Source of the DNA: Streptomycetaceae bacterium MP113-05
Lineage (GTDB): Bacteria; Actinomycetota; Actinomycetes; Streptomycetales; Streptomycetaceae
DNA: 51,493 bases
Direction of reading: 5' to 3'
NCBI GenBank assembly: GCA_000497405.1
Contig: KI547039.1
Coordinates: 336,700-388,192 of the forward strand
Position 1 is the first letter of the stretch. Every line of letters starts with the position of its first letter. This document shows positions 16,036-33,249 of this stretch, piece after piece. A program made the position numbers and the translations under genes. Under the pieces are notes generated by a model, which saw only the letters and a program-made list of their open reading frames with translations, was not told where the DNA came from and ran no database searches.

Positions 16036-17946
16036 TCACAGGCCGAGAACGTCCCGCACGGCAGTGGTGAGGATGCGGGGACCGTTCTGGGTGAGGACCG
16101 ACTCGGCATGGAACTGTACGGAGGCGAAGTGGGGGCCACGCAGGGCGTACACCTCACCGTCGGCCGGGTTGTGGCTCACCTCGACGAGCCCGACACCAGG
16201 CACCTCTCGTTTGTCCTCCCTGCTCCAGGCGGCGAAGGTGTTGTAAAAGCCTACGCGTTCGGGTGAACCGAACAGGTCGATCAGCTTCTGGACCCCCTGG
16301 TTGGGGGTCTCCAGCGGGAGGACCTCGAGTCCGAGAGCGAGACTGAGCGCCTGGTGGCTCAGGCACACGGCGACGAACGGCGCGTGCCGCGCCAGCAGTG
16401 TGTGCACTGCTGCGTGCAGGTGCCGCATCCTCGAGTTGCCCCTCTCCCCCGGATCGCCGGGTCCAGGACCGAGGACGACCAGGTCCCAGTCGTCCAAGGA
16501 GTACTCCTCGTCGAAGCGCCGGACCGTCACCACCAGTCCCGTGGCCTGGAGTTGATGCTTGATCATGGAAGTGAAGGTGTCCTCGGCGTCCACCACAAGA
16601 ACCCGCAGACCGGCGAGCAGGGACTCACTCTCCTTCGCCACCCGGTCAGCTTCGTCACGGAGCCAGAAGTCGGCGAGGGAGGCGTTGCGGTGCTCCAGAG
16701 CCGCTCTGACCTGAGGATGCTCGGCGAAGCTGGCGCTACGGCCGGGGTCCAAGGCTGCCACCAGGCCGTCCGTCTTGGCGCGGGTCTCGGCTGTCTCGGC
16801 GCCCGGGTCCGAGTGACGCACCAGGGTCGAGCCGACGCCGATCCCCAGACGACCCGCCTCGCTGATGGCGGCGGTGCGGATGAGGATGGCCGAATCCAAC
16901 GCCGGCTGGCCCGCCCCGTCGCGTCCGATGAGGGCGGCCACACCGCTGTAGTAGCCGCGCCCCTGCGGCTCGTACCTGTTGATCACCCGGCAGGCGCTCT
17001 CCAGGGGAGATCCGGTCACGGTCGGCGCGAACATGGTCTCGCGCAGGATGTCCGCAGCGCTCCGTGTGGTGTGCCCCTCGATGAGGTACTCGGTGTGTGC
17101 GAGACGGGCCATCTCCTTGAGATAGGGGCCGACCACACGGCCGCCCTTCTCGCAGATCCGGGCCATCATCTTCAGTTCCTCGTCAACGACCATGTAGAGC
17201 TCATCGGCCTCCTTGCGGTCGGCGAGGAAGTCCATGACGCCCGCCAGGGTGGGTCCTTGGGGCGGATAGGGATACGTACCGCTGATGGGGTTCATCACGG
17301 CCTTGCCCTTCTCCACGCTGATGTGCCGCTCGGGTGTGGCGCCGACGAAGGTGCGCTCGCCGGTGTGAATGAGGAACGTCCAATAGGCACCCGCCTCCCG
17401 TTGCAGCAGCCTGGAGAAGAAGGTCAGCGCGCTGTACGGACCGTAGTCGGTGATGTCCGCGACGAACGAGCGCTTGATGACGAAGTTCGCGCCCTCACCC
17501 GTACCGATCTCCCGGCCGACGACGACACGGACGATCTCCTGGTAGGACTCGTCGTCCACGTCGAAGTGGCCGCCGCTCAGGGTGATCGGTACCTGCGGCA
17601 TCCGGGCCAGCGCGTCGGGCAGGCTCACCTGCTGCTGCTCCGTGATGTCCAGCGCGATCAGCGGGGCGCCGTCGTCGGGGACGACGAAGCCGCGCTCGGC
17701 GATCTGCCGGTAGGGAATGACCACGAGGAGCTCGTGGTGCGCACGGCCCTCGTGCACCGACCCGTCCGGCAGCGGGAGGTCGGCGAGGATCGCGGGTTCG
17801 GTGACCTCTCCGACGACTACGTCCAGGTTACCGGCGCCCGCAGCCTCAGGACGGTACAGCAGAGCGTACGCGCCCGGCGGGTCGGCGAGGACCCGGGTCA
17901 GCAGGTCGCCTTCGTCTGCTGTGGTGGCCGATGTGGATGCGCTCAT
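16036..17946 (-). CDS. PhzE-like 2-amino-2-deoxyisochorismate synthase
   Basis: A 636-residue fusion. An N-terminal chorismate-utilising domain (about residues 1-410; [29 protein letters not shown]) is followed by a class I glutamine amidotransferase domain. The amidotransferase keeps the catalytic Cys near 528 ([13 protein letters not shown]) and the His-Glu pair near 611 (QFHAESV). The order and length match PhzE, which makes 2-amino-2-deoxyisochorismate from chorismate and glutamine without releasing pyruvate. It should feed the PhzD homologue, whose stop overlaps its start by ATGA. The start has AAGGAGA nine bases upstream. Phenazine genes phzF, phzG, phzA and phzB are absent. Anthranilate synthase activity is the main alternative, made unlikely by the phzD partner. 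Confidence 0.9.
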
Positions 17947-18566
17947 GCAAAAATCTCCTTCGCGGTGAGGACCACTGCGCACCGTTCGGCGGCGTAGTCC
18001 ATCGCCATGCGGTGGTACTGCGCGGAGAAGTCGGCGACAGCGTCGGCGACGAGGAACGGCTGAATATCGTTGGTGAACGCCTCGACGGCAGTCATGAGGA
18101 CCCCGACGTGGGCGTACACGCCACAGAGGATCAGCTGATCCCGGCCGCTCGCCCGCATGCGTTCCAGCAGTGGCGAGTTGAAGAACGCGCTGTAGCGCCA
18201 CTTGGTCAGCTCCCAGTCGCCGTCCGCGCGTGCCAGCTCGTCGATCACCTCGCGGTCGGTCGGCTCCGCACGCATCCCCGAGCCCCAGAAGTCCGCGAGC
18301 AGACCCCGCTGCTCGGCCGTCATGCTGCCGGGCTGGGCCGTATAGGCCACCGGAACGCCGAGAGTGGCACAGCGGTCGCGCACCGCCGCCGCGTTGTGCA
18401 CCAGCCAGGAGCGGACGCTCGCAGGGAAGGGCGCCAGAAAGTACCGCTGCATATCGTGAACGAGCAGCACCGCGCGGGCCGGTTCGGGCGTCCACCGGGC
18501 AGTATTGGCGGGCAGTCCGCCCGTGGTGGGCATCGGGTAGGGCTCGATAGGGGGTATTCCAGGCAT
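17943..18566 (-). CDS. PhzD-like isochorismatase (DHHA-forming)
   Basis: A 207-residue alpha/beta hydrolase of the isochorismatase family, equal in length to Pseudomonas PhzD. Asp38 in [10 protein letters not shown] and Lys122 in [10 protein letters not shown] fall at the same residue numbers as the PhzD catalytic residues, and GVYAHVG completes the active site. It should hydrolyse 2-amino-2-deoxyisochorismate to trans-2,3-dihydro-3-hydroxyanthranilate (DHHA) and pyruvate. The ATG at 18566 fits the family start [10 protein letters not shown]; the in-frame extension upstream is rejected. It is translationally coupled to the phzE-like gene. The 307 bp before it contain a hairpin, so phzDE may have its own promoter. 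Confidence 0.92.
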
Positions 18567-18873
18567 GGCTTCGCTTCCGGTTCCTGTCTCGAATGGCTCG
18601 TGGGCCTCACAGCGGCGCCCGTTCCTGGCGGAGACCACCGCGACGGCCCTTCCTGGGTTGGGCTACGGGTCGCTCAAGGTGGCAGGGGCAGTCGCCGCCG
18701 TGGCCGTAGCGCTTCGGCCGGCGACATCCGGGCACCTGAGGAACGGACGCACCGTGGGTGACCAGGGCCCCACGGGCGTCCGGCTCCGTCTGCGGCCACG
18801 GATGCGACCACGTCCCGGTGCGCCGAGTGGCCGCACAGCGCCGGACGTGCGGCACCCGGGCGGTGCGACCGGG
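18567..18873. other. Spacer between the ketoreductase gene and phzDE
   Basis: This 307-bp stretch breaks the otherwise overlapping operon. It holds a hairpin (18830-18853) just behind the ketoreductase stop and presumably a promoter for phzDE. I could not identify convincing -35 and -10 hexamers, and no frame here looks coding. Confidence 0.5.
18830..18853 (-). terminator. Hairpin after the ketoreductase gene
   Basis: A 7-bp perfect stem (gccgcac and gtgcggc) with a 10-nt loop starts 21 bp after the ketoreductase stop. It may terminate or attenuate the upstream operon before phzDE. Confidence 0.45.
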
Positions 18874-19647
18874 TCAGCCGGAGAGACCGCCGTTGATCTC
18901 GACGACCTGACCGGTGAGGTAGGCCGCCCGGGCAGAGACCAGGAACGAGACCAGGTCGGCGACCTCCTGCGGCGTACCGGTCCGGCCAAGCGGGATGTTG
19001 GCGAGGTGGCGCTCGGTGACCTCCGCGGACAGGCCGGCCGTCATGTCGGTGTCGATCAGGCCGGGGGCCACGGTATTGGCCCGGATTCCGTAACGGCCGC
19101 ACTCTTTGGCCAGTGACCGGGTGAGACCGATGATCCCTGCCTTCGAGGCCGAGTAGTTGGTCTGCGTGGCACTGCCGTGCACTCCGGCGATTGAGGACAG
19201 CGTGACGATCGCACCGCAGCGGCGCTTCATCAGCGCGAACACGGTTGCCCGGCAGACGTTATAGGTGCCGTTGAGATTCGTGTCCACCACCCCGTGCCAC
19301 TCTTCCTCGGTCATCAGGGCAAGCGGCCGGTCCCGGGTGATTCCGGCCGAGGTGATGACGGCCGACAGCGGGCCGACCTCCTTCTCGACCCCGGTGACGA
19401 ACTCCTTCACCTGCGCGAACTCGGCGACGTCGACCTGCCGATGATGGACGCGGGCACCCACCGCCTCGGCAGCCTTGGCCGCGGCCTCGGCGGCGACGGA
19501 ATCGGAGCGATAGCAGAACGCGATGTCGTAGCCGTCCTCGGCGAGCCGGACGACGACGGCGCGCCCGATGCCCCGGGATCCTCCGGTCACCAGCGCCACC
19601 GGGCGGGCGGCTCCGGCGGACTGCCGGCCCGTGTCGGTGCCGTTCAC
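18874..19647 (-). CDS. FabG-like 3-oxoacyl-ACP reductase (short-chain dehydrogenase)
   Basis: A 257-residue classical short-chain dehydrogenase. The NADP(H)-binding motif TGGSRGIG is at residues 21-28. The catalytic Ser is at 151/152 (TLSSIAG), and Tyr165 and Lys169 are in [19 protein letters not shown] fits FabG-type ketoreductases. It should reduce a beta-ketoacyl group on the ACP encoded just upstream. The GTG start overlaps the ACP stop by GTGA. This is the only reductive step visible in the cluster apart from the aryl dehydrogenase. No dehydratase or enoyl reductase is encoded here, so one beta-hydroxy group would be expected to persist unless enzymes elsewhere act. Confidence 0.88.
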
Positions 19648-19913
19648 GTCGCGGACTCGGTGCCCAGACCGGCCTTGACAAGTTCGCGTACGAGCCGGAA
19701 ATAGCCCATCTCGGTCAGCTGCGACTCGTCAATCTTCACGCCGTAGCGCTCCTCGATCCGCACGGCGATCTCCAGCGATATCAGCGAGTCGACCTCGAGG
19801 TCCTCCTTGAAGCGCGCCTCGTCGGTCACTTCCTCGACGGGCAGTTCCAGTGCCCCTGCGACGACAGCGCGCAACTCTTCGACGTCGAGCGGCCTGTCGG
19901 TGTGGTCGGCCAT
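19644..19913 (-). CDS. Acyl carrier protein
   Basis: An 89-residue free-standing carrier protein. The phosphopantetheine attachment site is Ser43 in [12 protein letters not shown], preceded by the acidic KEDLEVD typical of type II ACPs. GAGGAG lies nine bases before the ATG at 19913. It sits between the degenerate ketosynthase partner and the ketoreductase and overlaps the latter. It is the likely carrier of the extender unit or growing chain, distinct from the carrier domain fused to the AMP ligase. Confidence 0.92.
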
Positions 19914-19947: not shown

Positions 19948-20979
19948 TCAGGTAGTACGCCGGGGGCCGCTGAGGAACACCGCGGCGACGGCGTCGTCCT
20001 CGGGACCCCCGCAGGTGGCGAGTGCCGTATGGCCGGCATGCTCGTCGAAGTACGCGACGGCGGCAGCAGCCTGGAGCAGCCCGAGCGCGCCGGAGCAGAG
20101 GCCGAGCGACTCGGTCGGGTCGAGGACGGAGTCGGCCCGGACGGAAGACCGGGCGGTCGCGTCGTCCCCCACGGTCTCCTCGGCGACCTGACGGTCGACC
20201 AGCCACAGGTCGACGGCGGGCCCGGGGCCATCCTCGTCCGCCCGGGCCTGGCCGGGTCCGCCGACCCGGGCGGCGGTGACGGCCGCGATCAGGCTCTCCC
20301 TGCGCGCGCAGCCGGCCACGGTGGCACGCACCCGGGCCCCGCGTTCGGCTGCACGGGAGGCCGACTCGATCACGAGCGCGACCGCGCCGTCCAGGGCCGC
20401 TGCGCCGAGGAGCTTGGCGACGGCGTCGCCGTCGGGCTCCACGCCGATCACCACGGCCGTCTCGGCGCGCCCTGCGACGATGAGGGCCCGAGCCCAGTAG
20501 AGGGCGTCCAGTCCGCTGGTGGGGCCGTTGCACAGGGTGACGTTCGGACCGCGCAGCCCGTGGGCCATGGCGACCGATCCGGCGGTCACGTTGCTTGAGG
20601 TCTGCGGCAGCCCGAGCGGGCCGAGACCGAGCACGGTGTCCCGGGCGATGATGTCGGCAAAGGAGCAGACGCTGTCCAAGATGCCGAAGTTACTGCTGAC
20701 GACGACGGCCGTGGAGTCGCCGTGGCCGGTGTAGCCATCGTCGCCGAGCAGTCCCGCGTCCCGCAGGGCGGGCGCGGCGGCACGCAGTGCGAGCCGGGAG
20801 GCGCGGTCCTTGTGCCGCAGGTCACGCCCGAGGAGTCCGGTACGAGGATCGAAACCGCCCTCGCGGATGGTGCCCAGCAGCTCATCGGGCAGAGTGAGTC
20901 CTGGTACGGCCAGGCCCACGCCGGTGACGACGGCCTCGCGGTGGGCGGGCGCCGACGACGGGGGGTATGCGGTGGTCAT
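19948..20979 (-). CDS. Ketosynthase-like protein lacking all catalytic residues (chain-length-factor-like)
   Basis: A 343-residue thiolase-fold protein. The N-terminus (AVVTGVGLAVPG) and the central NGPTSGLDALYWA block align with beta-ketoacyl synthases. The catalytic Cys position is Pro153. The second His region reads ESLGLCSGALGLL where an active enzyme has KS..GHT.., and the first His motif (HGTGT type) is not recognisable around DLWLVDRQ. It is therefore inactive as a condensing enzyme and probably a partner subunit for the adjacent intact ketosynthase, as in KS-CLF pairs. It is about 60-80 residues shorter than usual KS or CLF proteins and does not carry the Gln replacement of classical CLFs. 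The start overlaps the upstream KS stop by ATGA. Confidence 0.8.
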   Translation of the reverse strand: MTTAYPPSSAPAHREAVVTGVGLAVPGLTLPDELLGTIREGGFDPRTGLLGRDLRHKDRASRLALRAAAPALRDAGLLGDDGYTGHGDSTAVVVSSNFGILDSVCSFADIIARDTVLGLGPLGLPQTSSNVTAGSVAMAHGLRGPNVTLCNGPTSGLDALYWARALIVAGRAETAVVIGVEPDGDAVAKLLGAAALDGAVALVIESASRAAERGARVRATVAGCARRESLIAAVTAARVGGPGQARADEDGPGPAVDLWLVDRQVAEETVGDDATARSSVRADSVLDPTESLGLCSGALGLLQAAAAVAYFDEHAGHTALATCGGPEDDAVAAVFLSGPRRTT

Positions 20980-22109
20980 CTTGCTGCCTCCAGGATTGCG
21001 GCGGCGTTGATCCCACCGAAGCCGAACGCGTCGATCTGGGCGAGCGTCAGGTCCGCGGTGGCGGCCTCGTCGCGCACCAGCCGCAGCCCGGTGGCCTCCT
21101 CGATGGGGTCGACGAGACCGAGTACAGGCGGCACCTGGCCGCGCTGCAGGGCGATCGCCGCCATGGCCAGACTCAGCAGACCGGAGCCACCGAGGGTGTG
21201 TCCGGTCATCGACTTGATGGCGGTCATCAGCGGTCCGCTCCGGGCGGGGAACATCCGGGACAGCACCGTGGCCTCGGTGGAGTCGTTCTTCGGGGTACCG
21301 CTGCCGTGCAGCATGACGAGGTCGAGGTCCTGCGGTCCGACCTGTGCCCGCCGGTGTGTCTCACGCAGCACGCGGGTGATGCCCTGCGGGTCGGGGGCCG
21401 TGGAGTGGTGAGCGTCGCAGTTCACGCCGACCGCGCGCAGCCGCGCGTGGACCCGGCTGCCGGGACCGGCAACACGAGTGAGTACCACCGCGACGGAGCC
21501 CTCGCCCATCAGCATGCCGCAGTGCGAACGGTCGAACGGGCGCAGAGCCTCGGGCACCTCGTTCTGGACCCGGTCGAGGGTACCGAATGCGCTCTCCCCG
21601 ATGGAGTCCGTCCCCGCCACCACCACGGTGTCGGCCTCGCCCAGCTCGAGCAGGTCGGTGGCCATGGCCAGCGCGTAGAGCGTGGCGGCGCAGGCGTTGG
21701 CGAAGGTGTACGTGCGGGTAGCGCCGTAGCGCTCGCGCAGGGCGGTGCCGAAGTGGAGCGCGCGGGGGTCCAGGGCTGCACCGTGACGCCACCACAGTTC
21801 GGCGCTGCGCTGCTCCTGGAGAGTGGTGCCGACCAGAACGGGAACGTCGGTGAGGTCGCCGGAGTGGCCGGCGTCGGCTAGGGCCTGGTCGATCGCCGCG
21901 ACGAGCCAGCGGGTGGCCCGCCCCGGCTCGTCGATGCCGGGACGAGCGCGGTCGGTGATCTCGTACGCCTGCCGTGCGCGGTACTTGTCATGGTCGAAGG
22001 CCTGGAGAGCGCCCAGTCCGTCGCGACCGGCGCACAGCGAGTCGAAGATCCCGGACGGGGTGTCGCCCACACAGGCAACGGCTCCCATCCCGGTGATGTC
22101 CCACGTCAT
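20976..22109 (-). CDS. Beta-ketoacyl synthase with intact active site
   Basis: A 377-residue condensing enzyme of the KAS I/II type. The catalytic set is complete: Cys140 in FANACAATLYA, His268 in MLHGSGTP, Lys299 and His304 in KSMTGHTLGGSG. It is about 40 residues shorter than typical FabF. It overlaps the ligase gene upstream and the degenerate partner downstream by ATGA at each junction, so a stoichiometric pair is likely. The expected reaction is decarboxylative condensation of malonyl-ACP onto an aryl-primed carrier. A non-carbon-carbon coupling role cannot be excluded, because KS-like enzymes can also form esters or amides. No acyltransferase is encoded nearby, so malonyl loading would rely on primary-metabolism FabD. 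Confidence 0.87.
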   Translation of the reverse strand: MTWDITGMGAVACVGDTPSGIFDSLCAGRDGLGALQAFDHDKYRARQAYEITDRARPGIDEPGRATRWLVAAIDQALADAGHSGDLTDVPVLVGTTLQEQRSAELWWRHGAALDPRALHFGTALRERYGATRTYTFANACAATLYALAMATDLLELGEADTVVVAGTDSIGESAFGTLDRVQNEVPEALRPFDRSHCGMLMGEGSVAVVLTRVAGPGSRVHARLRAVGVNCDAHHSTAPDPQGITRVLRETHRRAQVGPQDLDLVMLHGSGTPKNDSTEATVLSRMFPARSGPLMTAIKSMTGHTLGGSGLLSLAMAAIALQRGQVPPVLGLVDPIEEATGLRLVRDEAATADLTLAQIDAFGFGGINAAAILEAAR

Positions 22110-24001
22110 TTTGCCTGCTCCCGAAGTAGGTGAGCGGCCACCTTGCCGGTGGTCGTGGTGGGCAGCGCGTCGACGAATTCCATCCGCTCCGGACGTTTGT
22201 AGGACGCGAGGCCGACGCGGATACGGGACCGCACCGCGCGGCGGACGGTGTCGTGGTCGGCGTCATCCGTGACGAGGAATGCCACAGCGCACTCCAATCC
22301 GTCGGCGTCGCGGGAGGCGACCACAGCGCAGTTGCGGACCCCCTCGACTTCACGCACCACGGTCTCGATCTCGGCAGGGGCCACCTTGTATCCGCCCAGG
22401 TTGAGGACGTCGTCGACGCGGCACAGATGGGTGAGACCGCCGTCGGTGTCCCGGCGGACCAGGTCGCCGGTGTAGGCGCCCCCGTCCGCGAACGTGAGCC
22501 GATCGGCGTCGGGACGGTTGAGGTAGCCCAGCGAGACGGAGGGACCCGCGATGTGCAGGCGGCCCTCGATACCGTCGGGCACCGGTTGGCCGTCTTCGTC
22601 GCGAACGGTGGCGGTGACACCGGGAACGGGCCTTCCCATGCGTCCGGGCATCGGGCGGTCCGGCGGGGTGGCGACGACGACGTGCATGAGTTCGGTGGCG
22701 CCGAAGCAGTTCACCACGGGTGCGCCGAAGGTGTCCTGAATCCGGAGATAGAGGTCGGCCGGGCAGTTCTCGCCCGCGGTCAGGCACAGACGCAGCGCGG
22801 CCACGGCCTCGTCGCCGGGGCGCAGAACATCGGGCAGGGCCGCGTAGAGGCGCGGTACGGAGCACAGGACCGTCGGGCGGTGGCGGCGCAGGGCGGCACC
22901 GACGACGCGCACGTCGACCGCCCCGCTGATCAGGACGGCGGTTGCGCCGGCGTCGAGAGTGCACAGGACGGAGCTGCCGAAGCCGTAGCCGAAGGACATC
23001 CGGGCGGTGGACAGCACAATGTCGTCGGCACGCAGGGCGATCTGGCCACCGAAGCCGTCGAGCATGGCGGTGATTCCGGCGGCGGAGTGCTGAACGCCCT
23101 TGGGCATGCCCGTACTGCCGGAGGTGTACTGGATGAGAGCGGCCCGGTCGGCGCGGTGCACTGCGGGCACCTCGGCGAGGTCGGGACGGTGGGCAGTGGT
23201 GGGGCCGCCGCCGCGCAGGCCGGCGCGGACCTCGTCGCCGGTGAGCAGGACGCGGCCCTCGGGTATCCGGGCCGGGGCGGTGTCCAGGTGGAGGACCCCG
23301 GCGACGCAGTCGGCGGCGATGAGCTCCCGGTCGGCCTCGCCCAGCATGGGGCTGACCGGGACGGGCACACAGCCGTGCCACCAGAGTCCGAGGATCGCGG
23401 CAACGGTGGCCACCGAGTCCCCGGCGACGACTACGGCCCGCGTGCCGGAAAGCACCCCGAGTGCCTTCAGTGCTCCGGCGTACCCCCGGGCCGCCTCGTA
23501 CAGGTCGCGGTAGCTGATCTCACCGAGATCGGGATCAGCGTAAGCGATCCGGTCGCCGTGACCAGCCGTGAGGTGACGACCGACCAGCCGCCGCACCAGG
23601 TCGGTACCGCCAGGGGCCACGCCTGGACCGGTGCCGACCGGGGTCCCTGCGGCTCGCTGCGAAGGGGCGAGGTCCGCAGGGGGGAGGGCGACCGGGTGCG
23701 CGCTCGGGACGCGGTGGGCGTCCGGGAGCTCCTTCCCCGGTGGCGCCGGGACGAGCGGGCCGTCGGCGAGCAGGCCGGCGGCGTCGAGGATGCTGTCGAC
23801 GGCGGCGAACTCCTCGTCGGCGAGCATGATGCCGAAGGTCCGCTCGATACGCGCGGCGATCTCGACCTTCTCCAGGGAGTCCAGCTTCAAGTCTTGCTGG
23901 AAGGAGGCGTCGGCGGCTACCTCGGCAAGGTCGATTTCGAGAAGGGTCGCCACGATGTGGCGCAACCGCTCCACAGCATCAGCTATCCGCTCAGGCGGCA
24001 C
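22106..24001 (-). CDS. Carrier protein-adenylation domain fusion, benzoate-CoA-ligase-like
   Basis: A 631-residue protein. Residues 1-78 form a carrier domain with Ser42 in LKLDSLEKVEIA. Residues from about 110 form an ANL adenylating domain with YTSGSTGMPKG (about 290), CFGATELMHVV, GDLVRRDTDGG and the catalytic Lys near 618 (TTTTGKVAAH). The GATELMH and PGRMGRPVPG region resembles benzoate-CoA ligases, pointing to an aromatic acid substrate. It most likely adenylates 3-hydroxyanthranilate, or its dihydro precursor, and loads it on its own carrier domain. I chose the GTG at 24001, with AAGGAG seven bases upstream, over an in-frame ATG at 24091. It is the first gene of the minus-strand operon. 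Confidence 0.85.
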   Translation of the reverse strand: MPPERIADAVERLRHIVATLLEIDLAEVAADASFQQDLKLDSLEKVEIAARIERTFGIMLADEEFAAVDSILDAAGLLADGPLVPAPPGKELPDAHRVPSAHPVALPPADLAPSQRAAGTPVGTGPGVAPGGTDLVRRLVGRHLTAGHGDRIAYADPDLGEISYRDLYEAARGYAGALKALGVLSGTRAVVVAGDSVATVAAILGLWWHGCVPVPVSPMLGEADRELIAADCVAGVLHLDTAPARIPEGRVLLTGDEVRAGLRGGGPTTAHRPDLAEVPAVHRADRAALIQYTSGSTGMPKGVQHSAAGITAMLDGFGGQIALRADDIVLSTARMSFGYGFGSSVLCTLDAGATAVLISGAVDVRVVGAALRRHRPTVLCSVPRLYAALPDVLRPGDEAVAALRLCLTAGENCPADLYLRIQDTFGAPVVNCFGATELMHVVVATPPDRPMPGRMGRPVPGVTATVRDEDGQPVPDGIEGRLHIAGPSVSLGYLNRPDADRLTFADGGAYTGDLVRRDTDGGLTHLCRVDDVLNLGGYKVAPAEIETVVREVEGVRNCAVVASRDADGLECAVAFLVTDDADHDTVRRAVRSRIRVGLASYKRPERMEFVDALPTTTTGKVAAHLLREQAK

Positions 24002-24264
24002 GGGCGCGCTCCTTGTCGGGCTGTAGGACGGCCGGTTGCACGGCTCCCCGGGGAGTTCCGGAGAGCCGTCAGGACCGTAGCCGACACGCATTCGGCACGT
24101 CAGCGACTACGTCGGAGTCCGTCAAGTCCGCTTCAGAGGGAGTCCGTTCGCGCCGGGGCGGGGGTAGCTCCGGGCTCCGACGCCGCGTCGTGGCGTACCT
24201 GCGCCGACCTGACGCACTTTCCGCACTGCGCTGGCAGCGGCCGGGTGCACACCCATAACTTGCC
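24002..24264. promoter_or_regulatory. Divergent promoter region of the cluster
   Basis: The 263 bp between the two divergent ligase genes should drive both halves of the cluster. Visible elements are an inverted repeat acggctc-N16-gagccgt (24040-24069), three copies of AGTCCG (24116, 24125, 24141), and on the minus strand TTGACG (24125-24120) 17 bp from TGACGT (24102-24097) as a weak promoter candidate. A pathway regulator could bind the repeats. None is confirmed. Confidence 0.4.
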
Positions 24265-26052
24265 GTGGACGAGCTGTCCGGTGCCGCGCGCATGGCTGGC
24301 CGAGTTCTGACGTCCACCGAAAGATTTCTCCGATCGAAGCCAGGTGATCTCATCCCGCTCACGCCCAGAACGATGCTGTCCACGGAAGCGCGCCAACGTC
24401 TCGCGGAACTTCCAGGTCTCGGCGGCGGCAATGCCTGGCGGATCGCCGTCGAGACGAATACAGCTGCGGACCTGCCGGTGCTGCTCGCAGACAAGCCGCT
24501 CGTCGACCCGGACGGGGCGTTGCGGTCGGAGTTCAGCCTCCGCGAGCTCGACGCCCTGGCCGACGCGTGGTCTGCCTGGTACCTGGATCGGAGCGTGGGG
24601 CCGCGCGACCGGGTCGGCGTGTTCCTGGCGGACACGTTCGCGTACCAGGTGCACCTCACGGCGTTGGCCCGGATCGGCGCGATCGGCGTGCTGATCAACG
24701 GCCGCATGCTGCCCGAACTCGCCCTCGGGCTGCTCCGGCGCACCGGTGCCGTCGGTCTGTTCACCGACCGGGAGCGCTTCGCCCTGCTCGCCGGTCGCGA
24801 GCGCGAGCTGCCCGAGCTGCACTGGACCGCCCTGGACGAGGAGGTGGGTGTGCTGGGCGCCCGCGCCCCGCGGTCCTCGGACCTGTTCCGGCACGACGAC
24901 GACGATGCCGTCGTCATCTGCCACTCGTCCGGGACCACCGGTGCTCCCAAGCCGGTGATCTGGACCCACCGCCAGAGCGTCTCGGGCGCTTGCTACCGGC
25001 TCGTCAACCACCCGGAGCCGGAGGACGTCCGAGTGCTCGCCGGCGCACCGCAGTCGCACTCCAGCGCCATCGCTTTCACCTATTACTCGCTGCTCGCCGG
25101 GGTGCCCACAATCGGCTGGTCCGACCCGACCGGCCCAGGCATCGCCCAGGGCTGCGCCACCCACCGCCCGACCGTCGTCCTGGCCTTCAACGAGGCCCTC
25201 TCACACCTTGCGACGCACGATCCCGAACCGGCGGACTTCGAATCCGTCGAGGTGTGGGTGAACCTCGGGGACTGCGGCCACGACGCGCACATGCGCCGGC
25301 TCATGGCGCTGGGGCGCACCAGGTCCGGTGACACGTGCGTGGCCGGGTCGATCATCGACGACGGCCTGGGCTCCTCCGAGCTGGGCTGGGCCGCGCTGCG
25401 CAGGGTCCTGACCAAGGACTCCCCGGCCCGCGCCCGCCACCTGGGCACCCGCGTGCCGATCGCCGAGGTGGCGGTGCTGAACGTGGACGGCTCCGAGGCG
25501 GGTCCGGACGAGGTCGGCCTGCTCGGTGTGCGCAGCGAGTCGGTGGCTCACGGCTACTGGAACGACTCCGACACCACCTACCGGTCGATGCTCTCCGGTT
25601 ACTGGCTCTCCGGAGACCTGGTTCGTCGCTCAGCCGAGGGTGAGTATTTCCACGTGGACCGGGCCGTCGACCGGATCCGCACCGACACGGGTGACGGCTA
25701 CTCGGCTCTGATGGAAGAGGAACTCCTGCTCGGAATAGAGGAGTTGGCTGACTGCTCGGTGATAGCCGGGCAGGAGCGCGGGCGCACCGTGCCGGTGGCT
25801 CTGGTGACGCTCCGCCAGGAGGTCGCAGCCGCAGACCTGCTGCAGCGGGCGAACGCCGTCCTGGAGAGTGCCGGCCAGCCCTCGCTTGCCCTGCTGGAGA
25901 TCGCTCCCTCCCCCGAAGACGTCCCTCTCGGCCCCACCGGCAAGGTGCTCAAGCGCCAGCTGCGCGAGAAGTACTGCGCACTGGAGGACTACCAGCCGGC
26001 CGGCCCGGGGACGGTGGCCGTCGCCAACGGCACGAAGGCGGCGAACGCATGA
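24265..26052 (+). CDS. Second, atypical AMP-binding ligase
   Basis: A 595-residue ANL-family protein. The P-loop motif HSSGTTGAPKP is near residue 220, the A5-type motif DDGLGSSELG is in the middle, and the A7-A8 hinge reads GDLVRR then DRAVDRIRTDTG. The A10 lysine is in PTGKVLKRQLRE near residue 560. The A8 loop lacks the usual Gly-Gly and Val pattern, so the C-terminal domain may be tuned differently. Substrate and acceptor are unknown; a second acid in the final product or a trans-loading role are both possible. The N-terminus is uncertain: the GTG at 24265, ATG at 24292 and ATG at 24373 are in frame and none has a good ribosome binding site. Its stop overlaps the thioesterase start by ATGA. 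Confidence 0.78.
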   Translation: MDELSGAARMAGRVLTSTERFLRSKPGDLIPLTPRTMLSTEARQRLAELPGLGGGNAWRIAVETNTAADLPVLLADKPLVDPDGALRSEFSLRELDALADAWSAWYLDRSVGPRDRVGVFLADTFAYQVHLTALARIGAIGVLINGRMLPELALGLLRRTGAVGLFTDRERFALLAGRERELPELHWTALDEEVGVLGARAPRSSDLFRHDDDDAVVICHSSGTTGAPKPVIWTHRQSVSGACYRLVNHPEPEDVRVLAGAPQSHSSAIAFTYYSLLAGVPTIGWSDPTGPGIAQGCATHRPTVVLAFNEALSHLATHDPEPADFESVEVWVNLGDCGHDAHMRRLMALGRTRSGDTCVAGSIIDDGLGSSELGWAALRRVLTKDSPARARHLGTRVPIAEVAVLNVDGSEAGPDEVGLLGVRSESVAHGYWNDSDTTYRSMLSGYWLSGDLVRRSAEGEYFHVDRAVDRIRTDTGDGYSALMEEELLLGIEELADCSVIAGQERGRTVPVALVTLRQEVAAADLLQRANAVLESAGQPSLALLEIAPSPEDVPLGPTGKVLKRQLREKYCALEDYQPAGPGTVAVANGTKAANA

Positions 26053-26528
26053 CCGCCCCCTCCGCCGCGGTTCCCGGGCCGGGGGCCCCGGCGGGGATCA
26101 TGCCGACCGGCCCCTCCGAGTCGACCGTGGCCTGGATCAACGAAGCCGGAGCCGAGACCCTCGCCGGCCGGATGGGCGTGGCTTTCCTGGAGGCCACCCC
26201 CCAACGGGTCGTTGCGACCATGCCGGTGGCCGGCAACACACAGTTGCAGCGAATACTGCACGGCGGGGCTTCGGCGGCCTTCGCGGAGTCCCTGGGATCA
26301 CTGGGTGCGGCCCTTCACGCCGGTGAGGGGCGCATGGCCCTCGGGGTGGACCTCAACGCGACCCACCACCGGCCCGTACGCTCGGGCACGGTGACGGGTG
26401 TGGCAACGGCACTGCACCTCGGCGATTCCTCCGCCAGCTACGAGGTCGTCATCTCCGACGAGGCGGGCCGCCGGGTCTGCACGGCGCGAATCACCTGTGC
26501 CCTGCACGGCGGGCGTAGGCGCGATTGA
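26049..26528 (+). CDS. PaaI-type hotdog thioesterase
   Basis: A 159-residue hotdog-fold protein. LHGGASAAFAESLGSLGA and GVDLNATHHRPVRSG match PaaI/YbgC-like thioesterases of the 4HBT family, with the HGG motif and a downstream acidic residue (Glu in AES) forming the likely active site. It probably releases an aryl or acyl chain from CoA or a carrier protein, or edits mis-primed carriers. It is translationally coupled to the second AMP ligase through an ATGA overlap. The N-terminal 30 residues are Pro/Gly/Ala-rich and not part of the fold. Confidence 0.83.
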   Translation: MTAPSAAVPGPGAPAGIMPTGPSESTVAWINEAGAETLAGRMGVAFLEATPQRVVATMPVAGNTQLQRILHGGASAAFAESLGSLGAALHAGEGRMALGVDLNATHHRPVRSGTVTGVATALHLGDSSASYEVVISDEAGRRVCTARITCALHGGRRRD

Positions 26529-26669: not shown

Positions 26670-28133
26670 ATGACCACCCTCCACGACCCTCACGAGCCTC
26701 ACGAGACACTGACCGGGGCGCAGCCCGTACTGCGCACCGGACCGGTGCTCCTGGTGCTGTTATCAGCCATGTTCTTCGCCCAGTTCGACTTCTTCGTCGT
26801 GAACGTGGCCGCGCCCTCCCTGGAGAGAAGCATCCACGCCAGTCCCGCCGCGCTCGAACTCGTGGTCGGCGGTTATGCGTTCGCGTACGCGGCGGGGATG
26901 ATCACCGGCGGCCGGCTCGGTGACGGATACGGCCACCGCCGCATGTTCGTCATCGGCACACTCGCCTTCGGGCTGACCTCGCTGCTGTGCGGGATGGCGA
27001 ATGCCCCCGGGCAGCTGATCGCCGCCCGGCTCGCCCAGGGGCTCGCCGGAGCGTTCATGGTTCCACCGGTGCTCGCCGTCGTCACGGCCTATTTCCCGGA
27101 CGAGAAGAAGCCCCGCGCGATGGCCTGGTATGGCGTCGCCGCCGGTCTGGGCTCCATCGCCGGCCAGGTATTCGGCGGCGGGCTGGTGGCTTCCGACTTC
27201 GCCGGTCTCGGCTGGCGCACCATCTTCCTGATCAACGTGCCGTTCTGTCTGGTCATCGCGTTCGCCGCGATGAAGGTGCTGCCTGCCCACACCCGCCGCG
27301 AGAGGGTCGGCCTGGACCCGGTCGGCGCCGTCGGCGTCTCGCTCGCCCTGGCCCTGCTCCTGGTCCCGCTGACCACGGGTCACGCCTCCGGCTGGCCGGC
27401 CTGGACCTGGATCAGCATGGCGCTGGCGATCCCGGTGGGCGCCGTCACCCTGTGGTGGGAGCGGGCTCTCGCAGCCCGCGGCGGCAACCCGGTGCTCGTC
27501 ATGTCCCTGTTCCGCAGTGATTCCTTCCGCGGCGGCGTGATCGCCAGTGTGGCCTTCATGGTCTACTTCGGCAGCTTCATGTTCACGCTGACGCTACTGC
27601 TGCAGTCCGGGTTGGGACTTGACCCGCTGGAGGCGGGCCTGGTGTTCTCGCCCATGGGTGTGATGTTCACGGCCACCTCGATGGTGGGCGGCCGGCTCAT
27701 CGCACGGTGGGGCATGAACGCGCTGGTGGTCTCCGGCGGGGTGACCGCGCTCGGCCTGTCGATGCTGGCCCTGCGCCTGGTAGCGATCGACACCGACACC
27801 GGCCTGCCGTGGGTGGTTCTCTGCCTGTGCCTGATCGGCGGCGGCAACGGGGTGGTACTGCCCGCACTGTTCGGCGCGGCCCTCACCACGGTCCGTCCGC
27901 AGGACGCCGGCACGGCCTCAGGCATCCTCACCACCAGCCAGCAGTTCGCCAGTGCCGCCGGTGTCGCGGCCATCGGCGCCCTGTTCTTCGCCATGGCGGG
28001 CGGGAACGCCACGGGTCGCGACTGGTCGGTCGCGATGGCCTGGGCGACCGGTGTGAGCTTGCTACTCGTCCTCGTAGTGATGGCGACGACCTGGACGTTC
28101 AAGCGCTTCAGCCCGGCGCCCTCCCGCACCTGA
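26670..28133 (+). CDS. MFS drug-export protein (DHA2/EmrB-QacA type) with a TTA codon
   Basis: A 487-residue integral membrane protein with about 14 predicted helices. Signature segments are the first helix with MFFAQFDFFVVNVAAPSL, motif A GGRLGDGYGHRRMF near residue 75, and the motif C-like GLGSIAGQVFGGGL. It is the likely exporter and self-resistance protein for the cluster product. Codon 31 (26760-26762) is TTA, the rare Leu codon read by the developmentally regulated bldA tRNA, and the only in-frame TTA I found in the cluster. GAGGAA lies about eight bases before the ATG. It is 141 bp downstream of the thioesterase gene and is followed by a hairpin. Confidence 0.88.
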   Translation: MTTLHDPHEPHETLTGAQPVLRTGPVLLVLLSAMFFAQFDFFVVNVAAPSLERSIHASPAALELVVGGYAFAYAAGMITGGRLGDGYGHRRMFVIGTLAFGLTSLLCGMANAPGQLIAARLAQGLAGAFMVPPVLAVVTAYFPDEKKPRAMAWYGVAAGLGSIAGQVFGGGLVASDFAGLGWRTIFLINVPFCLVIAFAAMKVLPAHTRRERVGLDPVGAVGVSLALALLLVPLTTGHASGWPAWTWISMALAIPVGAVTLWWERALAARGGNPVLVMSLFRSDSFRGGVIASVAFMVYFGSFMFTLTLLLQSGLGLDPLEAGLVFSPMGVMFTATSMVGGRLIARWGMNALVVSGGVTALGLSMLALRLVAIDTDTGLPWVVLCLCLIGGGNGVVLPALFGAALTTVRPQDAGTASGILTTSQQFASAAGVAAIGALFFAMAGGNATGRDWSVAMAWATGVSLLLVLVVMATTWTFKRFSPAPSRT

Positions 28134-28163: not shown

Positions 28164-28191
28164 TCCCTCCCCACTCCGAGAGATGACACGT

Positions 28192-30033
28192 ATGTGTGGC
28201 ATAGCAGGATGGGTCTCCTTCGACCCGGACGTACCCGTCACGGCTGACGTCGCACAGGCGATGACCGCGACCATGATCTGCCGCGGGCCGGACGCCGAGG
28301 GCCTGTGGACCACCCCGTCAGTGGCTCTCGGCCACCGACGCCTGGCCGTCGTCGACCCGGCCGGCGGCAGCCAGCCGATGTTCTTCGAACGCGACGGCGA
28401 GGTGGTGGTCGGCCTCAGCTACAGCGGCGAGGTGTTCAACTACCGCGAGTTGCGCCAGGAACTGCTCGGACGTGGTCACACCTTCCGTACCGCCAGTGAC
28501 ACCGAGGTCGTCCTGCGCGCCTACCTCGAGTGGGGCGAGGGCGTCGCCGAGCACCTCAACGGCATGTACGCCTTCGCTCTGTGGGACACCCGGACCGAGG
28601 AACTGTTCCTGGTCCGTGACCGCATGGGCGTCAAGCCGCTCTACTACCAGCCACTTCCCGGCGGCTTGCTCTTCGGTTCGGAGCCCAAGGCGATCCTGGC
28701 CCATCCCCGGGTACGGCCCGCGATCGACGCCGAGGGCTTCGCCGAACTCCTCGGCTTCACCAAGACCCCCGGCCACGCCCTCTACAAGGGGATGTACGAA
28801 CTGCGCCCCGGCCACACCCTGCGGATCGGCCGCGGCGGCATCTCGGTGCGCCGCTACTGGGCGGTAGAAGCGTACGAGCACACCGACGACCTGGACACCA
28901 CGATCGCCCGGGTAAGGGAACTGCTGGAGGACATCGTTGACCGCCAGATGGTGGCCGACGTACCCGTGGGGACCCTACTCTCCGGCGGGCTGGACTCCAG
29001 CATCATCACCGCGCTGGCCGCCCGCCGCAGGACCGCCCCGGTCAAGTCCTTCGCCCTCGACTTCGCCCGGCACGCCGACGACTTCCGGGCCGATGACTGG
29101 CGCGGCACACCCGACGCCCCGTTCGCGGAACTCATGGCCCGGCACGTCGGCTCCGACCACCAGGTGGTCTCCCTCCGGTCCCAGGCGCTGCTGGACACCA
29201 CGGCCCGCGAGGCGGTCATGCGCGCCCGCGATCTGCCGTTCGACCTCGGGGACGGCGACACCTCGCTCTACCTGCTCTTCAAGGAGGCGCGCAAGCACTG
29301 CACCGTGGCCCTGTCCGGCGAGTCCGCCGACGAGGTGTTCGGCGGCTACCGGTGGTTCAACCATCCCGAAACAGTCGCAGCGGACACCTTTCCCTGGCTC
29401 GCGCCGCCGTTCGGTACGGGCATCGCCGGACCCGGCAGCGGCGCGGGTGAGTCCCTCATCAGCCGCGGCCTGCTGACAAAGATCGACCTCAAGGGATACC
29501 GCAGCCAGCGCTACCACGAGGCCCTCGCCGAAGTGCCCCACCTGCCCGGCGAGTCCACTTCCGACCGGCGGATGCGGGAGATCGGCTACCTCCATCTGAC
29601 GCGCTTCCTGCCATGGATGCTCGACCGCAAGGACCGGGCCAGCATGGCGGCCAGCCTGGAAGTCAGGGTGCCGTTCTGCGACCATCGTCTGGTGGAGTAC
29701 GTCTTCAACACCCCTTGGGCCATGAAGTCCTTCGACGGCCGGGAGAAGAGCCTACTGCGCGCTGCCACGCGTGACCTGCTACCGACGGAGATCTCCGACC
29801 GGGTCAAAGCGCCGTACCCGATCACCCGGGACCCGCTGTACCTCGAAGGGCTGCGGACCGCCCTCAAGCGCGTGACGGACGGCCCCGCCGCGCCGGTGCG
29901 CGAACTGCTGGACGAGGAGGCGCTCGCCGCTGCCACTGCCGACGACCCGCAGCCGGGCTATCGGACCGGCACCGAGCTGGTCCTCGCGCTGGACTTCTGG
30001 CTGCGCACCCATGACGTCGACCTGGAGCTCTGA
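28192..30033 (+). CDS. Asparagine synthetase (glutamine-hydrolysing) family amide ligase
   Basis: A 613-residue two-domain protein. The N-terminal Ntn glutaminase domain begins Met-Cys-Gly-Ile-Ala-Gly, so Cys2 becomes the nucleophile. For that reason I start at the ATG at 28192 and not at the in-frame ATG nine bases earlier. The C-terminal synthetase domain has the PP-loop SGGLDSS near residue 264 and SGESADEVFGGY near 380. In a biosynthetic cluster such enzymes commonly adenylate a carboxylate and make an amide with ammonia from glutamine, or couple an amine. Here it probably amidates the aryl or polyketide carboxylate. A housekeeping AsnB role is the alternative, but the cluster setting argues against it. 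Confidence 0.85.
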   Translation: MCGIAGWVSFDPDVPVTADVAQAMTATMICRGPDAEGLWTTPSVALGHRRLAVVDPAGGSQPMFFERDGEVVVGLSYSGEVFNYRELRQELLGRGHTFRTASDTEVVLRAYLEWGEGVAEHLNGMYAFALWDTRTEELFLVRDRMGVKPLYYQPLPGGLLFGSEPKAILAHPRVRPAIDAEGFAELLGFTKTPGHALYKGMYELRPGHTLRIGRGGISVRRYWAVEAYEHTDDLDTTIARVRELLEDIVDRQMVADVPVGTLLSGGLDSSIITALAARRRTAPVKSFALDFARHADDFRADDWRGTPDAPFAELMARHVGSDHQVVSLRSQALLDTTAREAVMRARDLPFDLGDGDTSLYLLFKEARKHCTVALSGESADEVFGGYRWFNHPETVAADTFPWLAPPFGTGIAGPGSGAGESLISRGLLTKIDLKGYRSQRYHEALAEVPHLPGESTSDRRMREIGYLHLTRFLPWMLDRKDRASMAASLEVRVPFCDHRLVEYVFNTPWAMKSFDGREKSLLRAATRDLLPTEISDRVKAPYPITRDPLYLEGLRTALKRVTDGPAAPVRELLDEEALAAATADDPQPGYRTGTELVLALDFWLRTHDVDLEL

Positions 30034-30101: not shown

Positions 30102-30881
30102 TCAGACGCCGAGCGTGGCACCGCCGTCGACCGTGAGCTCGTGCAGGGTGATGTGGCCGGCCTCGTCGGACAGCAGGAACAGGACGGCGTTCGCGACATC
30201 CCGGGGGACGGCCACCTTGCCCAGCGGAATACCCCCCTTGTACGTTTCGAGAGATCCCTCGACCGTGGCTTTCCAACTGCTCTCGTCCTCGCCCTCCCAC
30301 ATCCCGGTGAGCATCGGGGTGTCGGTTGAACCGGGCGCTACGACGTTGCAGCGGATCCCGTACCGGGCCACCTCCAGGCCCAGGCTCTTGGTGAACAGCG
30401 TGGCAGCTGCCTTGGAGGCGCAGTAGGCCGCCATCCCGGTCCGGGCCACCAGGGCCGCGTTGGAGGCCACCGTGACGATGGCCCCCCCGCCCCCGCGCGC
30501 GACCATGGCGCGGACCACGGCCCGGGACACATGGAAGACGCCGTCGGCGTTCACACCGAAGGTCGTCCGCCAGTCCTCGTCCGTGAGGTCGAAGACCGGT
30601 TTGAAGCGCATCACCCCGGCGACGTTGACCAGGTAGTCCAGCGGTCCGAGGCTGGTCTCCGCAGCGGCCACCACCGCATCCACCTCGGTGCTGTCGGCGA
30701 CATTCGCGGGAAACGGCTCGATCCGACGCCCTTCTGCAGTCAGTGCGTCGACCGTCTCGCGCAGCCGCCCGGCGTCCCGGTCGACGGCCGCCACGCGAAC
30801 CCCCCGGTCGGCCAGTACCTCGACGACGGCGCCGCCGATACCGCCTGCCGCACCGGTGACCAGAGCAACCTTGTTCTGCAT
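30102..30881 (-). CDS. EntA/DhbA-like dihydro-aryl dehydrogenase, probably DHHA to 3-hydroxyanthranilate
   Basis: A 259-residue short-chain dehydrogenase. The NAD-binding motif TGAAGGIG is at residues 9-16, the catalytic Ser140 in TVASNAA, and Tyr153-Lys157 in AYCASKAA. The segment [12 protein letters not shown] followed by GMW closely resembles EntA/DhbA enzymes, which oxidise 2,3-dihydro-2,3-dihydroxybenzoate. With PhzD and PhzE in the same cluster, the natural substrate would be DHHA, giving 3-hydroxyanthranilate. The ATG at 30881 is chosen because GGAG lies six bases upstream; another ATG at 30887 overlaps that site. The gene faces the amide ligase gene and is divergent from the regulator. 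Confidence 0.87.
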
Positions 30882-31329
30882 GAGCATCTCCAAGCTGGGT
30901 GGAATGATTCGAGTTTCGCGGGGAGCCGGACTCCGAGGTGCGGGACCTGCTGTCCTGCGGCCGCCGAGGGAAACAGCGGCCGGCCCTTCACGACGCCCCG
31001 GCTTCTGAAGGGCCACGGAGACGGGACCGTCCGTACCGGCACGGCGACGAGGCCGTCCGGACTCACAGAATCGGACAACTTCGATGAGACGGAACGGAAG
31101 GGCGAACGAGGGCCGAGATGTCCGGCGCGGCGGACAGGGGCCGACAGCTCCCGGCTTACCGCTCCGCATCGTGATCGGCGCCTACAGCACCGGGCGGCAC
31201 CAGACGTGGCCGAAAAGGCACGGACCGCGGCCCCCTTCCGACAGTTACATGCTCTTGTCATGATCCCGGCGCATCTGACAGTTCTCAGGAGGAGGACGGG
31301 AGAGCCGGGAGGAGGGGGAGATCACCGGG
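30882..31329. promoter_or_regulatory. Divergent region between the aryl dehydrogenase and PucR-type regulator genes
   Basis: This 448-bp stretch has no credible gene. It should contain promoters for both flanking genes and perhaps the regulator's own site. A purine-rich run with two GGAGG-type motifs (31290-31320) precedes the regulator ATG and supplies its ribosome binding site. I could not pick out a confident operator. Confidence 0.4.
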
Positions 31330-33249
31330 ATGGAACGCAGCATCCTCACCATCCTGGAACTGCTGGCCGAAGGTGCTCCAGCCGAACGGCTCGAGACCTT
31401 CGCTGCCCGTGCCCGCGGCAACAGCGACGTGCGGAGCCTGACGGTCGTCGAGGAGGGAGTACGGCTCGGTCGGGCCCTCCACGAACGGCACGAACTGCGG
31501 CGCCAGCGTGAGGCCGGGCTGTCCGCCCTCGTCAGCATCGCACTGGAACTCACGTCGCCCGTCGACCTGTGCTCCCTCCTCGGCGTCATCACCCGCCGGG
31601 CACGCCTGCTGCTCAGGACCGACCTGGCCTGCGTAGGACTCCCCGGCGCGGAAGGCAGCCCGTCGGTCGTCCGCGCTGCGGACGGCCACGTGTCTGCGTT
31701 CACCATCGGCCTCGCCCTGCCCACCGTCGCCGACATCGGCAACGCCGCGGTCACCGGCGCGATCCCGGTCTGGACCCCGGACTACCTGCACGACGACCGC
31801 CTCCGGCACAGTGCCGAGCTCGATTCGGCGGTCGCGGCTGAGGGAGTTCGTGCGGCGCTGGTGGCGCCGCTGGGACGCGACGGATCGACCGGCGCCCTCT
31901 ACCTCGCCGATCGCAGCCCCCGTCACTTCACACACGAGGAAATCTTCCTGACGGGACTGCTCGGCGAACTCGTCGGCACCGCAGTGGAGAAGGTCACGGC
32001 ACTGGAACGGGCGCGCACCGAGCTGTCCGCACTCGACACCCGGTACGAACAGTCGGAGGGGAAACTGCGGACCACCGCCGATCTGCGGGACCTGCACCAT
32101 CGCCTCATCGGGCGGGCCCTCGACGGGGTGGCCCCGTCCGCGTTGGCCGAGGCCGCCGCTGCCCGGACGGGCGGTGTGCTGCGGATCCTCGCCACCGACG
32201 GCTCGGTACTCGACGCCACCGGCGGCGCCTCCACCTGGGGCGACGACGAGAGTGACGGGCCTGCCGCGGCGGCCGCCCACACCGCAGGTCGCCCCGTCGC
32301 CCTGGGCGAGGGCAGGTGGGCCGCCCCGGTCAGGGCCAGGGGCACTGGCCTCGGCACGGTCCTGCTGCGACAGAACCGCCCGGTCACCGACACCGACGTA
32401 CAGGTGCTGGCCATCCTTGCCGAGGCGCTGGCCGTCCTGCTCCTCGGAGGTGGGGCCGGGCCGTCCACAGCCCCGGTCCAGCGCCGTGACGGCCACTTGG
32501 ACGACCTGCTCACCGGCTCCTCTCGGCTGGTTGAGCAGACCGGACGGTACCTCCCGGGCCCCGGACGACCGCACGTCGTCCTGGCGGCCCTGCCGAAAAC
32601 CGATCAGCTGGGCGAGGCAGTCGCCTGGGCAACACTCCACGCCCGCCGCACCGGTGGTCTGGCGGGCGAGCGAAGCAGTCTGCTGGTTCTGGTCCTGCCC
32701 GGCACCGACCCGGGCCGCGCCGCCCGCGCCGTCATGGACGAACTGGTACCGCTGCTGGACGGCGCCGTGACGATCGCCGGAGCAGGCCCGGTGACCCACC
32801 AGGCCGCCACGTCGGCAGCGTTCGAGGAGGCCCGCCAGTGCCTCGACGCGATGATCGCCCTCGGCGCCACCGGCTGTGCCGCCTCCGCCCGCGACCTCGG
32901 CTTCTTCGGGGCACTGCTGTCCGGCAGCCGCGATGTCACCACCTTCGTCCACTCGGCGATAGGCCCCGTCCTCGACTACGACCGGCAGCGGTTCACCGAG
33001 CTGACCAAGACTCTGGAGGCCTACTTCCGTTCCGGCAGCAGCCCGACCTACGCCGCCCAGGAGCTCTTCGTCCACCCGAACACCGTCTGCCGCCGGCTGG
33101 CGCGAATCGGGAGCCTGCTCGGCCCCGACTGGCAACAGCCCGACCACAGGCTGAAGATCCAGCTCGCCCTCCGTTTGCACGGGATCCGGCAGTCCCTGAT
33201 CGAGCGGCGCACCGGCGAGCGGGACGAGGGGGCCGGACGGCCCGGGTAG
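31330..33249 (+). CDS. GAF-PucR family transcriptional regulator (CdaR-like)
   Basis: A 639-residue regulator. An N-terminal helical region leads to a GAF-like sensor domain at about residues 60-225 (TDLACVGLPGAEG, APLGRDGSTGALYLADRS, FTHEEIFLTGLLGELVGTAVE). The middle is a GGDEF-like degenerate regulatory segment. The C-terminus carries the PucR-type HTH (AAQELFVHPNTVCRRL near residue 575-590). It is the only regulator in the cluster and is placed at its edge, divergent from the aryl dehydrogenase gene, so it is the best candidate for pathway control. Effector unknown. Its 3' end is overlapped by an antisense frame that belongs to a run-on transposase remnant. Confidence 0.82.
   Translation: MERSILTILELLAEGAPAERLETFAARARGNSDVRSLTVVEEGVRLGRALHERHELRRQREAGLSALVSIALELTSPVDLCSLLGVITRRARLLLRTDLACVGLPGAEGSPSVVRAADGHVSAFTIGLALPTVADIGNAAVTGAIPVWTPDYLHDDRLRHSAELDSAVAAEGVRAALVAPLGRDGSTGALYLADRSPRHFTHEEIFLTGLLGELVGTAVEKVTALERARTELSALDTRYEQSEGKLRTTADLRDLHHRLIGRALDGVAPSALAEAAAARTGGVLRILATDGSVLDATGGASTWGDDESDGPAAAAAHTAGRPVALGEGRWAAPVRARGTGLGTVLLRQNRPVTDTDVQVLAILAEALAVLLLGGGAGPSTAPVQRRDGHLDDLLTGSSRLVEQTGRYLPGPGRPHVVLAALPKTDQLGEAVAWATLHARRTGGLAGERSSLLVLVLPGTDPGRAARAVMDELVPLLDGAVTIAGAGPVTHQAATSAAFEEARQCLDAMIALGATGCAASARDLGFFGALLSGSRDVTTFVHSAIGPVLDYDRQRFTELTKTLEAYFRSGSSPTYAAQELFVHPNTVCRRLARIGSLLGPDWQQPDHRLKIQLALRLHGIRQSLIERRTGERDEGAGRPG

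Follow-up and report, generated by a model that had tools for sequence, protein, structure and literature searches.

A ketosynthase with a catalytically dead partner and an aryl ligase in Streptomycetaceae: a KS2-CLF2-like branch of highly reducing type II polyketide synthases with a putative route to diazotized amino-aryl acids

Our data suggest that a ketosynthase (KS) and its catalytically dead partner from Streptomycetaceae bacterium MP113-05, both encoded in the 51,493-nucleotide stretch of DNA analyzed here (the window), belong to a branch of the highly reducing type II polyketide synthases (PKSs) resembling the second KS-chain-length factor pairs (KS2-CLF2) of cinnamoyl-type clusters. 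By analogy with the ava and cma pathways, this pair, presumably aryl-loaded, probably builds an ortho-amino-cinnamate-type acid, which would then be diazotized.

The KS-partner pair and its gene cluster

The cluster in the window comprises the following genes.

16036-17946, minus strand: PhzE-like chorismate-binding enzyme with a glutamine amidotransferase domain (PF00425, PF00117)
17943-18638, minus strand: PhzD-like isochorismatase (PF00857)
18874-19647, minus strand: FabG-like ketoreductase, adjoining the acyl carrier protein (Pfam/NCBIfam)
19644-19913, minus strand: free acyl carrier protein (ACP), proposed malonyl carrier (PF00550)
19948-20979, minus strand: catalytically dead, chain-length-factor-like partner, 343 aa (Pfam, residues in 48 loci, tree, pN/pS, predicted model)
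20976-22109, minus strand: KS of a highly reducing type II PKS, KS2-like, 377 aa (Pfam, residues in 48 loci, tree, predicted model)
22106-24091, minus strand: N-terminal carrier domain fused to a benzoate-CoA-ligase-like AMP ligase, proposed to load the starter (PF00550, PF00501, PF13193)
24265-26052, plus strand: AvaA6-like adenylating enzyme, proposed diazotase (NF058622)
26049-26528, plus strand: hotdog thioesterase, proposed to release the acid (PF03061)
26670-28133, plus strand: MFS transporter, proposed exporter (own sequence and homologues annotated as MFS transporter in L119 and L122)
28183-30033, plus strand: asparagine-synthase-like amidotransferase (PF00733, PF13537, and TIGR01536 above cut-off)
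30102-30887, minus strand: DhbA-type dehydrogenase, proposed final step to 3-hydroxyanthranilate (3-HAA) (TIGR04316 above cut-off)
31330-33249, plus strand: PucR-type regulator, possibly of the cluster (PF13556, PF01590)

The KS is a complete ketosynthase (PF00109, E 1.2e-17; PF02801, E 2.8e-25) with Cys140, His268, Lys299, and His304 all present, and its reading frame shares four bases, ATGA, with that of the partner, in which Pfam recognized the N-terminal ketosynthase domain only (PF00109, E 1.3e-14). Classical CLFs usually have Gln at the position of the catalytic Cys; in the partner this position is Pro153, within TLCNGPTSG, and the Lys/His region reads ESLGLCSG from residue 290. The intact KS, the overlap, and both replacements had been named in the original prediction, and its coordinates and residues were confirmed throughout. 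The ligase fusion matched TIGR02262 (E 3e-89; 300 bits, below the cut-off of 375). Neither a dehydratase nor an AvaA7-like deaminase was recognized in the window cluster, and no nitrite genes were recognized in the window. The scanned proteins, a part of the window's open reading frames, gave no match to the AvaH/AvaI families, the starter genes being PhzE-, PhzD-, and DhbA-like instead. Homologues of the PucR-type regulator (42-46%) are present in the phzE/phzD loci L175, L177, and L178.

The pair was compared across 48 loci (the window, seven named loci [L009-L015], and 40 stretches picked among KS matches), with gene starts assigned by script; L013 and L079 represent one strain, and each is counted. 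All 30 loci of one subclade encode, next to the KS, a ligase homologue 49-76% identical to that of the window, and the other 18 loci gave no match above 44%. Within L081-L094, 10 of 14 loci (e.g., L081:4360-12400) carry genes of three kinds ahead of the ligase/KS/CLF module, namely, methyltransferase, uracil-DNA-glycosylase-family, and nucleoside-deoxyribosyltransferase-like genes, the last of these matches lying slightly below the Pfam cut-off; these modules perhaps serve an uncharacterized nucleoside-type product. A strong ketoreductase match is present in the window and absent from L081-L083 and L085-L094.

Starter supply, nitrite supply, and the proposed pathway

Given the glutamine amidotransferase domain of the PhzE-like enzyme, its product should carry an amino group. 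Formation of 3-HAA by PhzE, PhzD, and a DhbA-type dehydrogenase is described as established for limazepine and as proposed for penzonemycin in the accessible portions of those reports. The complete phzE/phzD/dhbA set was found in the window, L009, L095, L096, and L122, and two Streptomyces plasmids, NBC_01471 (= L095) and KN37, are annotated with the 3-HAA set plus DAHP synthase and FabI. All eight of the closest loci (window, L009-L011, and L075-L078) encode the ligase, the AvaA6-like enzyme, the thioesterase, the MFS transporter, and the asparagine-synthase-like enzyme, and within the stretches examined only two (window and L009) have 3-HAA genes. The six genomes whose closest loci have no local 3-HAA genes all encode PhzD elsewhere, against 179 of 392 overall (chance 0.009, uncorrected for kinship); phzE and phzD occur together in the four of them that were examined, with dhbA alongside in two (L174 and L176). 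The PhzD gene lies about 3 to 22 kb from a nitrosuccinate lyase gene in G005, G302, G240, G060, G392, and G023. A second asparagine-synthase-like gene (51%) is located at L174:13189-15039, by the distant 3-HAA and nitrosuccinate locus of G005.

The AvaA6-like enzyme scored 344 bits against NF058622 (E 1e-102), far below the cut-off of 975, so that its reaction may differ from that of AvaA6. This score, together with a window cluster devoid of nitrite genes and the asparagine-synthase-like gene accompanying the AvaA6-like gene in all eight closest loci, gives some weight to a second reading, which we consider possible though not probable: the protein would be a plain acyl-CoA or amide ligase without N-N chemistry, and the thioesterase, the ligase, and the asparagine-synthase-like enzyme would free, activate, and amidate the acid. 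Several observations argue against it. NF058622 is the top NCBIfam match, 200 bits ahead of the next, and local nitrite genes are also missing from 72 of 134 published ava-like clusters, about half, according to the part of that study available (PMC10777205). An above-cut-off nitrosuccinate lyase is encoded in 12 of the 14 genomes with both a window-type KS and an AvaA6-like gene, compared with 103 of 392 Streptomyces genomes (binomial 6e-6, uncorrected for kinship), and in 5 of 14 ligase-subclade genomes without an AvaA6-like gene (Fisher 0.018 against the 12 of 14, likewise uncorrected). G191 and G396 carry the AvaA6-like gene without an above-cut-off lyase, and the lyase of G397 lies just 5 bits above the cut-off. 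The L013 cluster unites the same module with anthranilate synthase (TIGR01815) and nitrosuccinate lyase (NF052556), both above cut-off, and with a flavoprotein that is CreE-like by a PF13454 match and its position alone. In the window genome, an above-cut-off nitrosuccinate lyase gene on contig C6 adjoins a CreE-like flavoprotein gene, unlinked to the cluster. This gene pair (L187:8902-12686) is situated near a contig end. The stretch L013:2265-19695 holds a window-type KS and an AvaA4-like KS together with the anthranilate synthase, CreE-like, and nitrosuccinate lyase genes; its genome is that of strain TP-A0873, which the available literature text associates with antimycin, bohemamine, and butenolides.

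We retain, with more confidence than doubt, the diazotization reading, in which substrate, step order, and product are modeled on ava and cma. In those systems, as far as the accessible text describes, an aryl acid on one ACP is extended by a KS-CLF with malonyl from a second ACP, followed by reduction and diazotization of the free amino acid (PMC10777205). In the window cluster, PhzE-, PhzD-, and DhbA-like enzymes would convert chorismate to 3-HAA, which the ligase would attach to the carrier domain of the same fusion protein. The KS, presumably in a heterodimer with the dead partner that shapes it, would join this starter to malonyl from the free ACP, probably in a single round. Reduction by the ketoreductase and the action of a dehydratase recruited from fatty acid synthesis could then yield an amino-hydroxycinnamoyl chain, the thioesterase would release the acid, and the AvaA6-like enzyme would diazotize the amine, ortho to both the hydroxyl and the side chain, with nitrite from an unlinked nitrosuccinate pathway. 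Diazonium species of this kind are described in the accessible part of a review as unstable when the ortho hydroxyl is missing. Closure to an N-N heterocycle would be a further extrapolation.

A wider evolutionary scenario is offered tentatively. Aryl-primed highly reducing type II PKSs may have arisen at least twice, in the AvaA4 branch and, independently, out of the KS2-CLF2 pair found in cinnamoyl clusters. The second branch would take ortho-amino starters (3-HAA and anthranilate), and its product, diazotized to an o-diazo-oxide, might close to a cinnoline- or indazole-like N-N heterocycle; in most close relatives, starter and nitrite would come from a second, unlinked cluster, a form of pathway coupling. 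If the diazotase reading is true, it points to a family of uncharacterized clusters whose likely products are N-N bonded aromatics, and it adds a second origin to comparisons of the way in which KS-CLF pockets accommodate aryl starters.

Placement among ketosynthase families

In a profile search of the PDB, the KS matched the ishigamide KS best (6kxd_A, E 8.5e-69), with 9s5h_B second, FabF at about 1e-55, and the actinorhodin KS at 1.2e-40. Both proteins are predicted to fold confidently as single chains (pLDDT 92 for the KS and 88 for the partner). The top fold match of the KS model was again 6kxd_A (TM 0.90), and the structure search with the partner model was led by FabF chains (Z 35.2), with 6kxd_A at Z 33.9 and CLFs not singled out. 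L190 contains an open reading frame of 841 aa whose two halves both resemble ketosynthases, a natural tandem and a possible template for the heterodimer.

The 48 window-type KSs formed one clade (support 100/100) in a tree of 92 rows, apart from Iga11, the KS1s of cinnamoyl-type clusters, third KSs, the AvaA4-type KSs (6 rows, from 7 loci around above-cut-off AvaA6 homologues), FabF, and the aromatic-like pair. Their partners likewise formed one clade (100/98) apart from Iga12 and FabF in the CLF tree, for which four fused or long partners (L095, L105, L107, and L109) were trimmed to their first 330-345 residues. The KS tree contained L181 as the single aromatic-like pair and was built without benzoxazole KS, ActI, or aryl polyene (Ape) sequences. 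The 18 loci outside the ligase subclade are of the cinnamoyl type; in 15 of them a KS1-like gene lies directly upstream of the pair. The glaE-glaF-glaG order is published for KS1, KS2, and CLF2, and EpcR-EpcQ is a comparable KS-CLF pair of the epoxinnamide cluster, according to the portions of those papers available. Because the cinnamoyl-type loci match this order and EpcR-EpcQ, we name the window pair KS2-CLF2-like. Since these sister rows are the KS-CLF pairs of cinnamoyl-type clusters, the clade is a branch of the highly reducing type II PKSs, with the published Gla, Ysf, and Epc systems matched by gene order and text.

The 30 ligase-bearing loci constitute one clade in both the KS tree (100/93) and the CLF tree (100/97), and support for it drops to 93/95 in a reduced tree, where the cinnamoyl rows form the sister group (93/93). 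The aryl-linked branch is real and nested beside the known cinnamoyl KS2-CLF2 pairs. The original prediction of a separate clade of KS-CLF-like pairs acting on aryl starters holds in part. With the part of the suggested reference sets that was used (no aryl polyene or benzoxazole KSs), the clades are distinct and strongly supported, and the aryl-ligase loci stand together, with a gene context pointing to amino-aryl starters; the clade nevertheless proved to be a branch of a known lineage, sister to the cinnamoyl KS2-CLF2 pairs.

The pocket differs from that of the best-studied relative, as the position of Iga11 Asp113 is Met or Leu in all 48 window-type KSs. Asp occurs there in 19 of 55 other KS rows, all of KS1 or ishigamide type, and this residue promotes release in Iga11, as stated in the accessible part of the Iga11 work.

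The partner might alternatively be a cyclization factor, a single C2 extension being followed by closure of the ortho-amine on the beta-keto thioester to give a hydroxyquinolone. An ortho-amino aroyl-acetyl thioester is poised to cyclize. The available account of AmcF-AmcG provides a precedent for a single extension coupled to ring closure, and the AmcF model matches the window KS from end to end (E 5e-51). Nevertheless, the KS scored 174 bits, below the AmcF cut-off of 325, and the partner 24 bits, below the AmcG cut-off of 80; the AmcG profile is 157 positions long compared with the 343-residue partner; the above-cut-off AmcF-type KSs obtained from 17 chosen genomes (L188 and L189) branch separately in the reduced tree (100/100); and a ketoreductase adjoins the ACP in the window. 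We consider this alternative unlikely. A conventional aromatic, reducing-free minimal PKS would agree with the adjacency of KS, CLF-like partner, and ACP, and is nonetheless highly improbable, given that the KS profile lies nearer the ishigamide than the actinorhodin KS, that the aromatic-like L181 rows fall elsewhere in the tree, and that no cyclase or aromatase was recognized near the pair.

Conservation of the dead partner

In every one of the 48 loci the KS gene is immediately followed by the partner gene in the same orientation, and in 39 of them the two overlap by 4 bases. The KS residues are maintained almost without exception (Cys and His304 in 48/48; His268 and Lys299 in 47/48), whereas the Cys position of the partner holds A (24), P (14), V (5), T (4), or R (1) and never C or Q, which makes Pro153 one replacement among several. 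That the partner had lost every catalytic residue, as first described, is correct for the Cys, His, and Lys positions, with the nuance that 46 of 48 partners retain Cys150, three residues ahead of the lost nucleophile. Both proteins had also been called shorter than usual, which is true against FabF; within their own clade such lengths are normal, the KSs measuring 373-403 aa and 43 of 48 partners 300-372 aa (the others 283, 386, and 388 aa plus two fused partners with 415 and 776 aa). Partners are fused to ACP at L119:13119-14366 and to ACP plus thioesterase at L121:13137-15149.

Partner genes are under purifying selection that is somewhat weaker than that on the KS (pN/pS 0.25-0.48 and 0.23-0.27, respectively, in seven pairs), and the partner alignment has 31 invariant columns in 41 rows (41 of the 48 partners; the KS alignment includes 39 of 48). 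A decaying duplicate without a role, which the missing catalytic residues might bring to mind, is hardly credible against this constraint and the invariable gene order. A dead partner is ordinary for this kind of enzyme, and a CLF without Cys is the rule in highly reducing type II PKSs. Among 392 Streptomyces genomes, 73 encode a KS homologue (E <= 1e-90, cinnamoyl clusters included) and 81 a partner homologue (E <= 1e-15). An odd-looking dead ketosynthase thereby becomes a predictable part, namely, half of a stand-alone KS-CLF module coupled to aryl loading in many Streptomyces genomes.

Comparison with known systems

The 3-HAA genes had suggested a canonical benzoxazole route, which was set aside; no link of 3-HAA with a type II KS-CLF was found in the open-licence PMC literature. 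Diazaquinomycin and nybomycin were likewise rejected, the accessible literature giving no link, and the same open-licence literature yielded only synthetic chemistry for 2-aminocinnamic or anthranilate-primed products.

Penzonemycin (pzm) shares the 3-HAA genes and the nitrosuccinate pathway with the window genome and has a CreM-like enzyme; the accessible published text mentions no ketosynthase, unlike the window cluster. Like the window pair, AmcF-AmcG of cispentacin combine a short KS with a motif-less partner, as described in the available text, and the window pair falls below both cut-offs and on another branch. Ishigamide Iga11-Iga12 (6kxd) is the top match of the window KS by both structure and profile, yet belongs to a different clade, and its Asp113 is absent from window-type KSs. 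The KS2-CLF2 pairs of gla, ysf, and epc, whose cinnamoyl-type counterparts among the compared loci are sister rows in both trees, correspond to the window pair by gene order and published text. Their clusters encode acyclic polyene machinery and an isomerase, in place of which the solitary window pair has an aryl ligase.

Highly reducing type II PKSs primed with aryl acids have precedents in ava and cma, which make avenalumic and p-coumaric acid, respectively. In the accessible part of their description, they share with the window an aryl ligase, two carrier proteins, a KS-CLF, and an MFS transporter, as well as, for ava, a ketoreductase; their AvaA6-type enzyme has its counterpart in the AvaA6-like protein of the window, which scored below the cut-off (PMC10777205). 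The KSs beside above-cut-off AvaA6 homologues share only 31-35% identity with the window KS and occupy a separate tree branch, and tblastn found no CLF relative at seven such loci. The starters differ too, being 3,4-AHBA in ava and cma and probably 3-HAA in the window cluster, so that the amine, meta to the side chain in the former, would be ortho to both the chain and the hydroxyl in the latter.
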